Origin: Nitrospirales bacterium
GTDB taxonomy: Bacteria; Nitrospirota; Nitrospiria; Nitrospirales; UBA8639
DNA: 64,000 nucleotides
Reading direction: 5' to 3'
Assembly: GCA_031315865.1 (NCBI GenBank)
Contig: JALDRJ010000002.1
Coordinates: 951,147-1,015,146 of the forward strand
Position 1 is the stretch's first letter. Every line of letters starts with the position of its first letter. The notes under the pieces were generated by a model. The model did not search any database. It was not told where the DNA came from and saw only the letters and a program-made list of their open reading frames with translations. Of this stretch, positions 54,964 through 61,382 are shown in pieces. The position numbers and the translations under genes are program-made.

Positions 54964-55404
54964 GATGACCCCTCCAATGATTTCTAGGATAGAAAAACTT
55001 CTATTATTGATTATTGTATGAGTTTTTCAAATAATCGCAAGGTTGAGAAAAGAGAATTATCCTGAACGTCTTTAACGTCAAACATACGGCATGAAAGATC
55101 GCAGCGATCAACTAAATGATTCTACTCAGAAGGAAGGAAATCTGACGATAACAGACGTTACTATCATTATATTCCTATATTCCCCGAGCAACCAAGCGCT
55201 TTAATCAAAAAGTAACACAAGTACATGTGAATCGCACTCAACGGACTCCACGGAATCCAGCGATGAGGCCACCGATCAGGACTATGGTATTCTCGGTCAG
55301 AGTCTCTAGCATCATAATACTCGTGTAAGGCAACTTGAGATCCCAGGCTTGCTTGACACCTTTCGGACGCAATACTAGAATCGAAACTCATACCGAATCC
55401 GAGA
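54964..55404. other. Intergenic region between ugd and tRNA-Gly
   Basis: About 440 bases holding the ugd promoter and the promoter of the tRNA gene. Short open frames are present but unsupported. No repeat or RNA besides the tRNA is recognised. Confidence 0.45.
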
Positions 55405-55479
55405 GCGGGAATAGCTCAGTGGTAGAGCATCGCCTTGCCAAGGCGAGGGTCGGGGGTTCAAATCCCCTTTCCCGCTCCA
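55405..55479 (+). tRNA. tRNA-Gly (anticodon GCC)
   Basis: A full cloverleaf: acceptor stem GCGGGAA at 55405-55411 pairs with TTCCCGC at 55469-55475, followed by the discriminator base and an encoded CCA. The anticodon loop TTGCCAA gives GCC, for glycine codons GGC/GGU. The T-arm GGGGTTCAAATCCCC and the D-arm TAGCTCAGT are canonical. It is an isolated tRNA gene, a common integration target, though no integrase is seen nearby. Confidence 0.97.
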
Positions 55480-56810
55480 ATATCCCTTCAGTGTCCCATC
55501 AACAAGCACAAGGCCTTATCGGCTAAACTACCTCTCGATTTAAGCCTACAACCAGGGATTTCGAAAAGGGTATGTCTCTTTTGTAGTGAGTTACCAGAGG
55601 GGACTAGTGCTGTCTGTCTGCGGGAGCCAGCAAAAACTCTACTCTTGACTCAAGGATAAGTCACCATCACTGCCTATCACGGCATACCCTCCTAGGAACT
55701 TAGGAAGAAACTTCGTCTGTACGGTAATCTCGAAGTTGCACAATACTATGGGAGGATCCATTAAAAATGTCAAACGTGTCAGCTCGATGTTACTCATATA
55801 GGTTCGCTCTTGCATCGTGACGTCTCTTCCTTATCTTAAGGGTTGCTCTCAGTATGGCAGGCAACACCCATTTATCCGAGAAGCAGCGTCGGTTCAACTT
55901 ACCTCGAACATTGCTTTCGAATGGTCTAAATACACGGGCAATGCCTCATCAAGATGACCACCTTTGCCAAGAGTGACAAACGTCGTTAGGCCCGAGTCAC
56001 ACATTCTGGGGAAGCAAGACTCGAACAACCTTCGAGGCTAAAGCGTGGAATCTTTTTATTGACTATGGGCGGTGGTTGACTTCTGTTCAGATCTACATCG
56101 AATGTGGGAAGTGTCATTGGATTAGCATCGTACAGAGGAGCACGTGGACAAGCTCTTTCTGGATAAGCGAAATCCTCTCGGCCTTCTACAAGAAACCACA
56201 GCAACCCCTTTACGGATGAGAGCCGTCGACTGATGCAATGTACTTGCAGCTTCTTCCAGGATCGCCACGGAAGTGATGAGCTGGAAATGACCGTGTAGAG
56301 CAAGTAGATACGCTTGCTCTGTGTTCCCTAATCACTCCTTTTCCTTTCCCATTTTTCCTCATAGCTCTCAGCTCCTCTACTCGGCTTCTTATGTATCTAA
56401 TTTTAGATCAATTGTATCGTTTTAGATAATAAGTCACCAGCTACTTTCGTATCTGAAATAACTAAATTCAGCACCACACTTCAATAGAAACACCAGTTTT
56501 TGAGAGCCTTGGGATAACCAATTCGCTAGCGGCTTTCTTGGAACAACTTCTGCAACTTACACATTCATGAATTAAGACGACAGAGTTTCTAGAAGTTCTG
56601 CGCTCCGGCACAGTCATTTTACCACCCAAGGTTCCCTCAGGATTATTGCGCTTTGAGATCAACACCAGAAAGGAGGTGAATAGATATCATTTTATTCTCA
56701 ACCCAATTACCAGTGAACGGATAAGCGCAAACTGTGCTGGGGATGTTTCATTTTCCTTCTCTTGATAATCAATTCATTTGCTAAGGTATGAATGCTCAGG
56801 AGGACATCGT
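55480..56810. other. Gene-poor 1.3 kb stretch after tRNA-Gly
   Basis: No large gene is supported. It contains one plausible small gene (55639-55815) and a minus-strand part near 55870-56300 where protein-like sequence appears in shifting frames, as expected of a decayed gene. A sequence matching the full anti-Shine-Dalgarno complement (AAAGGAGGTGA, ending near 56679) lies 130 bases before the subtilase gene but no ATG follows it. The last 400 bases are AT-rich and presumably hold the subtilase promoter. Confidence 0.5.
55639..55815 (-). CDS. Possible 58-residue hypothetical protein
   Basis: An ATG at 55815 is preceded by AAGGAAGAG about 8 bases upstream. The 58-residue product has hydrophobic stretches alternating with charged ones (RLTFLMDPPIVLCNFEITV, KFLPKFLGGYAVIGSD) and looks protein-like, but no family is recognised. 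The surrounding 1.3 kb is otherwise poor in genes and may be decayed, so this could also be a remnant. Confidence 0.4.
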   Translation of the reverse strand: MQERTYMSNIELTRLTFLMDPPIVLCNFEITVQTKFLPKFLGGYAVIGSDGDLSLSQE

Positions 56811-59237
56811 ATGGATAATGTGGGAAACAGTCATGATATGCCAATGGGAGAAGAGCCCGAGAATCAACAAAAACAGGATATGCCGACTGGCAGCATGAGT
56901 CGAGAGGCTCGTAGCTATGAGATGCCGAACGGAAATTCGAGCACTTTATCTGCTGGTGGGGACATGCCCAATGGTGGTCCAACCAAACAGCACAGCTCCC
57001 GTGACATGCCAAGCGGCATGATGGAAAGCGAGAAGAAGTCAGACTCTATGCCTACTGGTGATATGGGAGAGACCGCGTCTGAAAATTTGATGGAAGCGGA
57101 CGACGGATTGGACCGCTTCGGTCCTATTAGTGACTCTCCCGAAACGAGTATGTCTGATACTTTTGAACCTGGAATGGTAGAAGTCGAATTCCGTGATGGA
57201 GTCCAACCACAGCTCAGTAGTTTACCAACCGGGCGATCTGGCATGATTGCAAGCCCATCAGCTGGCACCCTTTCGAACCTCAATCAAAAATTGCAAGATT
57301 ACGGGCTGCTCCATGCAGAGCCCAGCATTCAAATGTCTGAACAAGATGCCATGACAGCACAAGCATTTGCTCGGGGGCAAGATTCCAATATTCCTAACTT
57401 GAGCAGCTTTATCACGTTACATTTCCCTGATACGGCTAATACGGAAAACATTGCCCGTGAATTAAGTCAGTTACCCGAAATTGAACGAGCCGTCGCCGTG
57501 CCACGCGCGATTCCTCCGCTCAGTCCACTGAATGAACCGCTCGTCGGTACTTCTGATCAAGTCGCGGTAAATCCCGTTACTGGTCATGAAAATCAATGGT
57601 ACATCTTTCGATGTCGTGCCAATCAAGCATGGGATGTTGCCAGTGGAAAAAATGTAGTCATTGCCGACATTGACTGGGGATACCGCACAACCCACCAAGA
57701 CCTTTCCAGCCGACTTGATCTGAATCGTGCCTACAATTCATATGATGGAGGGACGAATGTCTCCACAGGTCCATCCGTGTCCCATGGGACGGCGGTCATG
57801 GGTATCGCGGGTGGGGCTGACAACAACTTGGGAATGGCTGGATTCGCATTTAATTCAACCTTGTGGCCAGTCCAGGCGGATAGTGGACCAGGCCCTTCTC
57901 TTGGTGGCAATGCCTGGGCACGAGGTATCGATTGGGTCCGTACAGCTAACAGCAATGGTCGGCGAAAGGTCATTATTCTCGAAGTACAAACCAGTACATT
58001 TGGGAATTATGAAATGGTGCCTTCGGTGAATGCCGCGATTCGCACCGCCATTGCTCATGGTGTCGTCGTTTGTGTCGCGGCCGGCAACGGCAACCGCGAC
58101 GCTGGCGTGGATGACTCTGGCAATCCTATCCCAGCAACAGGCTCCATTCTGGTGGGCGCAACAGAATATCATCCCACAGAAAACCGACGAGCCGGGTTTA
58201 GCAACTTTGGAAACCGTGTCGTTGTTTGTGCTCCTGGTGACTCATCTCACGATGTGACCGCCAGTAGTTCCTCCGACACCGCAGTTCGAAACGGGTTTGG
58301 TGGAACATCTGGGGCCACTCCGAAAGTTGCGGGTACCGCTGCTCTATTGTTGGAGGCCAATCCCAATCTCACACATGCTGAGATTCGAACAATCCTTCGA
58401 AATACAGGAACTGCCGTTGTCACAGACCCAAACAAACCGATTGGGACATTCCTCAACGCAGAAGCTGCGGTTCGGCAAGCGGCACGCCCCATGCCCTCTG
58501 GTCCAGTTGTTTCTTGGGGTGCGAATCGATTGGATGCCTTCGTGATCGGGACGAATTCGGCGTTGTACCACAAATGGTGGAACGGTTCGGCCTGGGGTCC
58601 ATCAGTCACCGGGTATGAAAACATGGGCGGCACGATTACCAGCAATCCTGAAGCTGTCGCCTGGGGCCCGAATCGTCTCGATGTATTCGTCCTGGGCACC
58701 AATTCGGCGTTGTACCACAAATGGTGGAACGGTTCGGCCTGGGGCCCATCAGTCACCGGGTATGAAAACATGGGCGGCACAATCATCGGTCAACCCAAGG
58801 CTGTGGCTTGGGGCCCGAATCGTCTCGATGTATTCGTCCTGGGCACGAATTCGGCGTTGTACCACAAATGGTGGAACGGTTCGGCCTGGGGCCCATCAGT
58901 CACCGGGTATGAGTACATGGGAGGTACGCTAAGCAGTAGTCCTGAAGTTGTGGCCTGGGGTCCAAATCGTCTTGATGTGTTTGCCATTGGGACCAACAAA
59001 CGTCTCTATCACAAGTGGTGGAACGGCTCGGCGTGGGGGCCCTCACTCACCGGATGGGAAGATCTTGGTGGCACAATTATAGGACAGCCGAGGGTGGTCT
59101 CTTGGGGTCCGAATCGATTGGATATTTTCGCCCGGGGAACCAATTCTCGTCTCTACCATAAGTGGTGGAATGGTTCGGCCTGGGGACCTTCAGTGACCGG
59201 GTGGGAAAATCTTGGTGGAACAATTATCCGTATGTAA
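56811..59237 (+). CDS. Subtilisin-like serine protease with MPxG repeats and lectin-like propeller
   Basis: An 808-residue multidomain protein; ATG 56811 follows CAGGAGGA. Residues 1-100 carry six short motifs of the form MPxG (MPMG, MPTG, MPNG twice, MPSG, MPTG), spaced 14-23 residues apart in Ser/Gly/Glu-rich sequence. A propeptide-like part follows. The S8 catalytic domain has the aspartate in [17 protein letters not shown], the histidine in [10 protein letters not shown] and the serine in [14 protein letters not shown] (Met to Gly after the Ser). The C terminus has five repeats of about 47 residues (core [24 protein letters not shown]) like PLL/fucolectin propellers, implying sugar binding. 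No ordinary signal peptide is seen. Confidence 0.88.
58500..59237 (+). repeat. Five tandem lectin-propeller repeats within the subtilase gene
   Basis: Near-identical units of about 141 bases, the second and third differing by only a few bases over most of their length, each encoding WGPNRLDVF...[14 protein letters not shown]. High DNA identity between neighbouring units suggests recent duplication or gene conversion. The last two units are more diverged. Confidence 0.85.
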
Positions 59238-59282
59238 GTCCGAAGAAATCCATCTTACTCATACACGAACATCTGAAAAAGA

Positions 59283-59313
59283 GAGTCCAGTGTCTTCCTC
59301 AGGCACTGGACTC
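59283..59313 (+). terminator. Terminator-like hairpin after the subtilase gene
   Basis: Arms GAGTCCAGTG (59283-59292) and CACTGGACTC (59304-59313) pair perfectly around an 11-base loop, 45 bases after the stop. The tail is only weakly T-rich. Position favours a terminator. Confidence 0.6.
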
Positions 59314-59356
59314 GTCCTATCGTGTTGCCTACCACATCCTCTGACAGCACGTCTAC

Positions 59357-59657
59357 TTATATTTTCCAGGAACGACTATACAAAGCGGATGCAAATGTAG
59401 CGGGCAGACGAAGGCCTGCACCATAGAAGTGCACACAGACGTCTGGCAACGATTGGACGTTCAGACTTGCCAATCGTGGAGCGATGACCAAAGCGACACC
59501 GAGGTAGGCAAAATAAAAAGGAAGTGAATACACGAAGAAGGTGGAGATTCCCTCTAGGTATGCTGTTTCCGATGAACCAAACGTCACGTCCAAGCCGTAA
59601 TATGTGGCGACTAACGAGCCGACGAGGTAAACACCAACAATAGCAGTATCAACCGAT
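59357..59657 (-). pseudogene. Relic of a sodium:solute symporter (SSS family)
   Basis: Minus-strand reading gives an N-terminal segment VDTAIVGVYLVGSLVATYYG like helix 1 of SSS transporters, then TFGSSETAYLEG and ALVIAPRLASLNVQSLPD, which resemble the region after helix 2. The intervening helix-2 part is missing, the start is out of frame with an ATG about 10 bases upstream, and the sequence ends after about 100 codons where a full protein has over 450. An 78-residue open frame within it is therefore not a functional gene. It sits downstream of the SulP gene. Confidence 0.65.
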
Positions 59658-59711
59658 GAAATTTCATTCCCTCACGTGTAAGACAATGATCTCTCCGTTT
59701 GGATTGAAGGA

Positions 59712-61382
59712 TTATGCCTGCGTCACCGGTTGATCATCTGGGTGGGTTGAGCCAGCAGCCTGCGCAGCGTGACGCAGAGCATCGAGTCGCTTAGCATACC
59801 GGTGCCCCGGGCGAATCTCTGAGAGGACACCGAGTCCATTCAAGACTTTGGTCACGTGGGGTTGCATGCCAACAAAGAACAAATGCTGCTTGTGAGCGCG
59901 AATGATACCAAGCATATCGTCAATGGCCATCGCCGAGGTTCCGTCGATGGCAGGGACATCTGATACGTCCAACACGCAGCTTGAAAATTCCCTCAGTCCT
60001 GGAACGGTTTCTAAGCGACGAACCATATTTTTGGCAGACCCAAAACTCATGGGTCCATCGACATGAATCAACACAATTTTCCCGGCATTCCTTTCTAATA
60101 TCGAATTTTCTTCCGGAGTGAGGGGAATTTCCGGATGCTCCTCCGTGATGATTCGCATGTTCGCAAGCTCGAGATCAGCCATTTCCTTGACGAACAGGAT
60201 ACTCGCCAACACCACGCCCACTCCTACAGCCGTGATTAAATCCACAGCCACCGTCACGACCAGTACGATCGTCATGATGACCACATCAGCTCGAGGGGCT
60301 TGAAACACATGTCGAAGAAACCGCCAATCGATGATATCGACGCCAACCTTCAACAAAATCCCCGCAAGGACAGCTAAGGGAATTTGCTCAGCGAGTGGCC
60401 CGAGCCAGAGAAGCGTGACGAGCAACACCACACCCATCAACATGCCCGACAACGGCGTCCGTCCACCCGACCGAATGTTAGCCACTGATCGCACGGTCGC
60501 GCCTGCGCCAGGCAGTCCGCCAAACAAACCGGCAATCATATTTCCGATGCCCTGGCCAATGAGTTCGCGATTTGAATCATGTTGGGTTCTCGTCATGTTG
60601 TCACACACGAGTGAGGTCAACAAACTATCGATCGCGCAAAGAAAGGCGATCACACAGGCTTCTTCGACCATGACGGTTAACGCATCAACGTGAAATGTCG
60701 GAACGATGATCGAGGGAAATCCCTGCGGAATCTCTCCGATCACAGGTGCATCGGGGAAAAAGAGCCTGGCGACAGGTGTGCAAACAAGCAACGCGAGAAG
60801 AGATGGCGGAATATACTTCCCGATCATGGCTGGAGTCCCATACATGATAACCAACGCCAGGCATCCGATGGCCGTAGCATGGACTTTTGGGGAACTGACG
60901 ATCTCCGGAATAGCCATCAAATTGCCTACGACTCCAGCAGCCGATTGATATCCGAGAACAGGAGCGACTTGCAGAATGATGATAATCGCGCCAATGCCAC
61001 TCATGAACCCTGAAATCACTGGGTAGGGAACGAGACTGATATATCGCCCGATGCCCAGCGCTCCCATCAGGATAAGAACGCCTCCGCCAAGGATAACCGT
61101 CGTGAACACAAGGGCTGGTTCGTCGGAAAATAAAACAAACATCCCTGCAAAGACGACTGTCATAGGGCCGGTCGGACCAGAAGCCTGGGCAGGAGTACCA
61201 CCGAACATGGCGGCAAAGAAACCCAGGAATATGGCTCCATACAGTCCAGTAACCGCTCCCGCTCCGGAAGAAACTCCAAACGCCAGGGCAAGTGGCAACG
61301 CGATTACCGCCGCGACAAGACCTCCGAAGAAATCACCTCGGAGGTTATAAAAATGCAGACCATGGATCACTTTGGAAATCAT
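59712..61382 (-). CDS. SulP-family anion transporter with STAS domain
   Basis: A 556-residue transporter of the SLC26/SulP family. Ten or more hydrophobic segments cover residues 15-400, with the family sequence GLYGAIFLGFFAAMFGGTPAQASGPTGPM near the start. A C-terminal STAS domain (about 425-530) contains VLIHVDGPMSFGSAKNM and CVLDVSDVPAIDGTSAM. Substrates in the family include sulfate, bicarbonate and other anions; in an autotroph, bicarbonate uptake is a reasonable inference but not shown. It is a single gene followed by the SSS relic. Confidence 0.92.
   Translation of the reverse strand: MISKVIHGLHFYNLRGDFFGGLVAAVIALPLALAFGVSSGAGAVTGLYGAIFLGFFAAMFGGTPAQASGPTGPMTVVFAGMFVLFSDEPALVFTTVILGGGVLILMGALGIGRYISLVPYPVISGFMSGIGAIIIILQVAPVLGYQSAAGVVGNLMAIPEIVSSPKVHATAIGCLALVIMYGTPAMIGKYIPPSLLALLVCTPVARLFFPDAPVIGEIPQGFPSIIVPTFHVDALTVMVEEACVIAFLCAIDSLLTSLVCDNMTRTQHDSNRELIGQGIGNMIAGLFGGLPGAGATVRSVANIRSGGRTPLSGMLMGVVLLVTLLWLGPLAEQIPLAVLAGILLKVGVDIIDWRFLRHVFQAPRADVVIMTIVLVVTVAVDLITAVGVGVVLASILFVKEMADLELANMRIITEEHPEIPLTPEENSILERNAGKIVLIHVDGPMSFGSAKNMVRRLETVPGLREFSSCVLDVSDVPAIDGTSAMAIDDMLGIIRAHKQHLFFVGMQPHVTKVLNGLGVLSEIRPGHRYAKRLDALRHAAQAAGSTHPDDQPVTQA

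Follow-up and report, generated by a model that had tools for sequence, protein, structure and literature searches.

The window, that is, the whole stretch of 64,000 nucleotides that was analyzed, encodes on its forward strand (56811–59237) an 808-residue protein that combines, from the N terminus onward, an array of MPxG motifs, a linker, a propeptide-like region, an S8 subtilase, and a five-bladed PLL-like lectin. We consider the annotated N terminus of this protein to be real, because the ATG at 56811 is preceded, 7 nt upstream, by a perfect Shine-Dalgarno sequence, AGGAGG (56798–56803, forward strand), that is conserved in the ortholog. The latter, the only ortholog found, is encoded by the MAG 'Nitrospirales bacterium NPIRA01' (L034; the same gene as in genome G002) and shares 81% overall identity with the 808-residue protein.

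The array spans residues 9–83 (56835–57059, forward strand) and contains the six motifs listed in the initial annotation, all in the place and order given there: MPMG (residue 10; 56838–56849), MPTG (residue 24; 56880–56891), MPNG (residue 38; 56922–56933), MPNG (residue 52; 56964–56975), MPSG (residue 66; 57006–57017), and MPTG (residue 80; 57048–57059). The period between them, which had gone unmentioned, is exactly 14 residues (42 bp). In the window as a whole, the pattern ATGCCNNNNGG was counted 23 times, where 9.2 occurrences would be expected. An isolated MPSG at residues 561–564 (58491–58502, forward strand), which had been put forward as a seventh motif, is present immediately before the lectin, but it reads TPSG in the ortholog and was therefore excluded from the array. 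The array is followed by an acidic linker (residues 84–121; 57060–57173) that is 54% identical to the ortholog over residues 87–121.

As the initial annotation had recognized, an ordinary signal peptide is missing: no hydrophobic 11-mer is found in the first 60 residues, and residues 1–121 have a GRAVY value of −1.21 and a net charge of −16. Judged by this composition, the tail is of the disordered, acidic, extended type. A whole-protein AlphaFold2 model built from two sequences reached a pLDDT of 32.5, too low to place the tail.

The motifs had been regarded as a real element, a view that a lack of conservation would have undermined; six MPxG motifs are, however, also kept in the NPIRA01 ortholog, at a spacing of 15, 14, 14, 14, and 14 residues. 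Across the 18 array codons for M, P, and G, all 18 residues are the same in the two proteins, without a single nonsynonymous change, while nine synonymous changes have accumulated in about 12 synonymous sites. Conversely, the remaining array codons are only 18% identical at the protein level (pN 0.46), as compared with 87% identity for the protease and 92% for the lectin. The consensus over the 12 units of both orthologs is [D/N/E/S]-M-P-[T/N/S/M]-G, in which Met is invariant (12 of 12 units), with drift at most other positions outside the motif. Since the M, P, and G residues have remained fixed despite synonymous change and spacer divergence, we conclude that the MPxG motifs are held by selection at the protein level and that the spacers are little constrained; this conclusion draws on a single comparison, between the two orthologs in the data.

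These results also dispose of several simpler accounts of the array. When residues 2–100 were shuffled 300,000 times, the maximum was three MPxG motifs (37 shuffles) and never more, which, together with the retention of M, P, and G in the ortholog, rules out chance or composition bias. A DNA or RNA element was likewise ruled out, because the wobble bases of the Pro and Gly codons vary freely while the residues stay unchanged; an Rfam scan recovered only the upstream tRNA and no RNA element at the array. Internal start codons, one ATG being present in every unit, would leave Pro and Gly unexplained.

In NPIRA01 a 42-bp tandem repeat is still detectable in the array DNA (3.4 copies, 80% matches), whereas a tandem-repeat search no longer finds one in the array of the window. 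The array thus probably grew by 42-bp tandem duplication, after which selection retained only M, P, and G. Because units 2–4 of NPIRA01 are near copies of one another, the two orthologs could have arrived at six units independently.

The propeptide-like region (residues 122–262; 57174–57596, forward strand) has no Pfam match but is common to the relatives of the protease from Mesorhizobium and Microvirga; in its position and its conservation in these relatives, it resembles a subtilase propeptide, putatively an I9-like one. It is followed by the Peptidase_S8 domain (residues 279–535; 57645–58415, forward strand; Pfam E-value 3.7e-32), whose PF00082 score of 112.2 bits against a cut-off of 21.8 places it in the subtilase family. 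The triad, D288 (DWG), H325 (HGT), and S500 (GTSGATP), is kept in both the Mesorhizobium and the Microvirga relative. The score for the T7SS mycosin model TIGR03921 (98.7 bits) is below the NCBIfam cut-off of 278.75. Membership in a defence system was rejected, as a PADLOC search returned nothing beyond a generic subtilase match.

Outside the genus, the protease is most closely related to plasmid-borne S8 subtilases of Mesorhizobium (IHQ72_RS36805) and Microvirga (JO965_RS44450), which are 41–48% identical over the propeptide-like region and protease. Like the window protein, they have no signal peptide; they differ from it in having neither MPxG motifs nor a lectin, and the Mesorhizobium protein carries an S41 peptidase domain in place of the lectin. 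Each of the two genes lies upstream of an uncharacterized gene and a PLD-like gene. The resulting three-gene plasmid cluster (L033:5833–13365 in Mesorhizobium and L113:5845–11282 in Microvirga) comprises the signal-less S8 protease, with its S41 fusion in Mesorhizobium, a protein of about 550 residues with no significant Pfam match, and a PLD-like protein; by its gene content, it looks like an uncharacterized system.

The C-terminal part of the protein (residues 565–808; 58503–59234, forward strand) consists of five 49-residue blades matching PF03984 (DUF346) with 125.2 bits against a cut-off of 22, and it matches the Photorhabdus PLL lectin (E-value 5.8e-57). A two-sequence AlphaFold model of the lectin on its own reached a pLDDT of 82.7 and a pTM of 0.82; a fold search with this model returned PLL and PHL at the top, and PLL, PHL, and PLL2–5 overlay it with a TM score of about 0.8 at 2.5 Å. 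With PF03984 repeats above the cut-off and a predicted PLL fold, the domain can be assigned as a PLL-like lectin. It does not form a closed seven-bladed propeller within one chain, there being exactly five repeats; the model overlays five of the seven PLL blades and does not decide between ring closure and an oligomer. A stand-alone relative from Nostoc has five blades as well. The window protein thus resembles the PLL family (Photorhabdus PLL, PLL2–5, and PHL; PF03984/DUF346) in blade sequence, fold, lack of a signal peptide, and a flexible N-terminal tail, whereas the family members have seven repeats and no subtilase, rather than five repeats, a fused subtilase, and a tail with six MPxG motifs. 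At the DNA level, the blades are 147-bp tandem repeats (58551–59228, 79% matches); the near-identity of the blades at the protein level suggests homogenization.

The protease-lectin gene is found in two of the five members of the genus and is, on this distribution, accessory. Among 98 relatives, a DUF346 lectin was detected in three: the two orthologs and one weak, unrelated case. The gene neighbors differ between the window genome and NPIRA01; in the window, the protease-lectin gene is flanked, as identified by eye, by a UDP-glucose dehydrogenase-like gene and a SulP transporter-like gene. A search of 55300–59720 for flanking direct repeats revealed none.

The search for MPxG arrays in other genomes that had been suggested did yield a second array, that of NPIRA01, but none otherwise in the 98 relatives or in 396 Nitrospirota genomes apart from non-tail repeats and chance matches. 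Within the genomes of the two orthologs (G000 and G002), the protease-lectin is the only protein to carry an N-terminal MPxG tag, and a genome-wide MPxG sorting tag was rejected for lack of a second tagged protein in either. A wider MPxG family reached through viruses was also rejected: the 23 viral stretches retrieved are unrelated Met/Pro/Gly-rich sequences or simple repeats, and scanning viral contigs with the ortholog alignment revealed no relative. Searching plasmids with the tails by tblastn, and the PDB by phmmer, returned nothing meaningful, and a literature search on MPxG and MPTG motifs found nothing relevant. We consider the protein to be lineage-restricted, joining, as far as its sequence tells, a known protease and a known lectin to an undescribed, selected short-motif array.

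A contractile injection locus was not found, and the candidate role of an injection-system effector was rejected for that reason. The genome does encode, outside the window (L082:15555–16703), a lone 382-residue protein with a sub-threshold match to a phage tail sheath; no tail or injection genes were recognized beside it.

Because the fixed residues sit on a disordered, regularly spaced, and drifting tail, we tentatively favor, with somewhat less than even confidence, the reading that the array is an intrinsically disordered, multivalent N-terminal docking tail, in which six short linear motifs are carried on a hydrophilic 14-residue repeat. In each unit, a Pro-x-Gly turn would expose the Met side chain for uptake by a pocket that recurs in the partner, and many weak MPxG contacts would add up to avidity. 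A structural spacer, that is, a periodic Pro-x-Gly turn repeat that provides surface stand-off or elasticity and has no specific ligand, would account for the exact 14-residue phase equally well, and the turns and the acidic, hydrophilic composition agree with it; resilin- and elastin-type Pro-Gly repeat proteins are likewise built from short and hydrophilic units that recur periodically and form turns at Pro and Gly. The array differs from these in its invariant Met, its mere six units, and its attached enzyme, and a spacer needs no Met in every unit, yet Met is the residue that stays while most non-motif positions drift, so that we regard this explanation as possible but unlikely. It is barely credible that tandem duplication or composition bias left the array behind as a neutral by-product: although 42-bp duplications are visible in NPIRA01, synonymous sites are saturated with M, P, and G unchanged and the spacers almost fully diverged, and the shuffled sequences contained at most three motifs. 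The tandem units, with their constant motif and variable spacers, and the adjoining subtilase might also recall a multi-core peptide precursor, fused to its own protease, from which small peptides would be excised and released. However, genes for modifying or transporting such a product do not adjoin, the flanks being the two genes named above, and the spacers are featureless polar sequence. Furthermore, subtilases would be expected to cut a Met-Pro bond poorly, which counts against self-cleavage as well as against a precursor. We regard the precursor as very improbable.

The roles proposed in the initial annotation, namely self-cleavage, export, and substrate mimicry, found no direct support; the motif is no genome-wide tag, and a propeptide-like region already precedes the protease. 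In favor of an autoinhibitory mimic, a ligand with Met at P1 and Pro at P1′ would be uncleavable by subtilases, and the protein shares with the intracellular subtilisins both the lack of a signal peptide and an N-terminal extension that contains a hydrophobic-Pro motif. In the intracellular subtilisins, a LIPY/F motif of the N-terminal extension is positioned over the active site, where its Pro keeps the bond from the catalytic serine (PMC6220982). That motif is, however, a single copy near the catalytic domain with an aromatic residue after Pro, whereas the window protein has six motifs, with Gly, about 200 residues away; MPxG does not match the LIPY/F-type pattern [LVI]-[IFLV]-P-[YFH], the propeptide-like region intervenes between array and protease, and the Mesorhizobium and Microvirga relatives have the same protease without MPxG. 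We therefore consider a mimic improbable. An unconventional export or sorting signal, taking the place of a signal peptide, would suit the extreme N-terminal position of the array and a lectin-protease that is expected to work outside the cell, and PLLs, which themselves lack signal peptides, have been found outside cells (PMC12203525). We nevertheless give it little credence, as other proteins of either genome carry no comparable tag, a signal peptide is equally missing from the Mesorhizobium and Microvirga relatives, which have no MPxG, and the sub-threshold sheath match stands alone, with no contractile locus.

If the array is a docking tail, its partner might be the lectin of the same or a neighboring molecule, although we hold this identification to be decidedly doubtful. 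In the PLL family, the pocket that binds fucose or hydrophobic ligands is formed by two Trp residues, and a Met side chain occupies it in several crystals (PMC5584973, PMC6943638): sites 2F and 7F of PHL hold Met60 and Met1 (PMC5584973), and site 3H of PLL3 holds Met1 between Trp203 and Trp218, the authors inferring that the pockets may accept more than sugars (PMC6943638). By analogy, a Met-presenting array and a ring of Met-accepting pockets on one chain form a suggestive combination. The MPxG units would then be pseudo-ligands for the protein's own lectin pockets, and the array a multivalent, protease-removable latch that hides or cross-links the lectin, a scheme that we consider quite unlikely as it stands. 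A PLL-type ring of two-aromatic pockets would accept the Met side chains of the array; the tail could cover the lectin or tie subunits together, and the protease would then clip the N-terminal part away, ending either effect. In favor of a lectin partner, alignment mapping shows that the blades of the window lectin retain Thr and a pair of aromatic residues at the pocket positions, Tyr/Tyr in blades 1–3 and Tyr/Trp in blades 4–5. Against it, the pocket residues that are Trp in PLL and PHL are mostly Tyr in the window lectin. Moreover, MPxG occurs in none of six plasmid reading frames examined for other PLL-like lectins, and the motif thus does not appear to be a general companion of the lectin. 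Met binding in PLL3 and PHL takes place partly between crystal neighbors and may also reflect packing.

To our knowledge, bacterial examples of short-linear-motif arrays that selection maintains in otherwise freely drifting, disordered tails have seldom been documented. At minimum, the array supplies a well-defined motif, open to mutation, in what standard annotation would label a plain S8 peptidase. If the motifs were to bind the attached lectin, this would be a new way of gating lectin activity, and it would suggest a role for the flexible N-terminal tails of PLL lectins, whose function has been called unclear (PMC12203525).

The DNA upstream of the gene has features of its own. A tRNA-Gly (gcc) gene lies at 55405–55479 (forward strand), about 1.3 kb 5′ of the accessory protease-lectin gene. 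Non-coding DNA at 56361–56439, approximately 375–450 bp upstream, is 79% identical to NPIRA01 over 80 bp, and a second strong Shine-Dalgarno sequence, GAAAGGAGGTGA, is present at 56668–56679, about 130 bp 5′ of the gene and without an obvious open reading frame. Together, the upstream conservation and GAAAGGAGGTGA may mark a leader or regulatory element.
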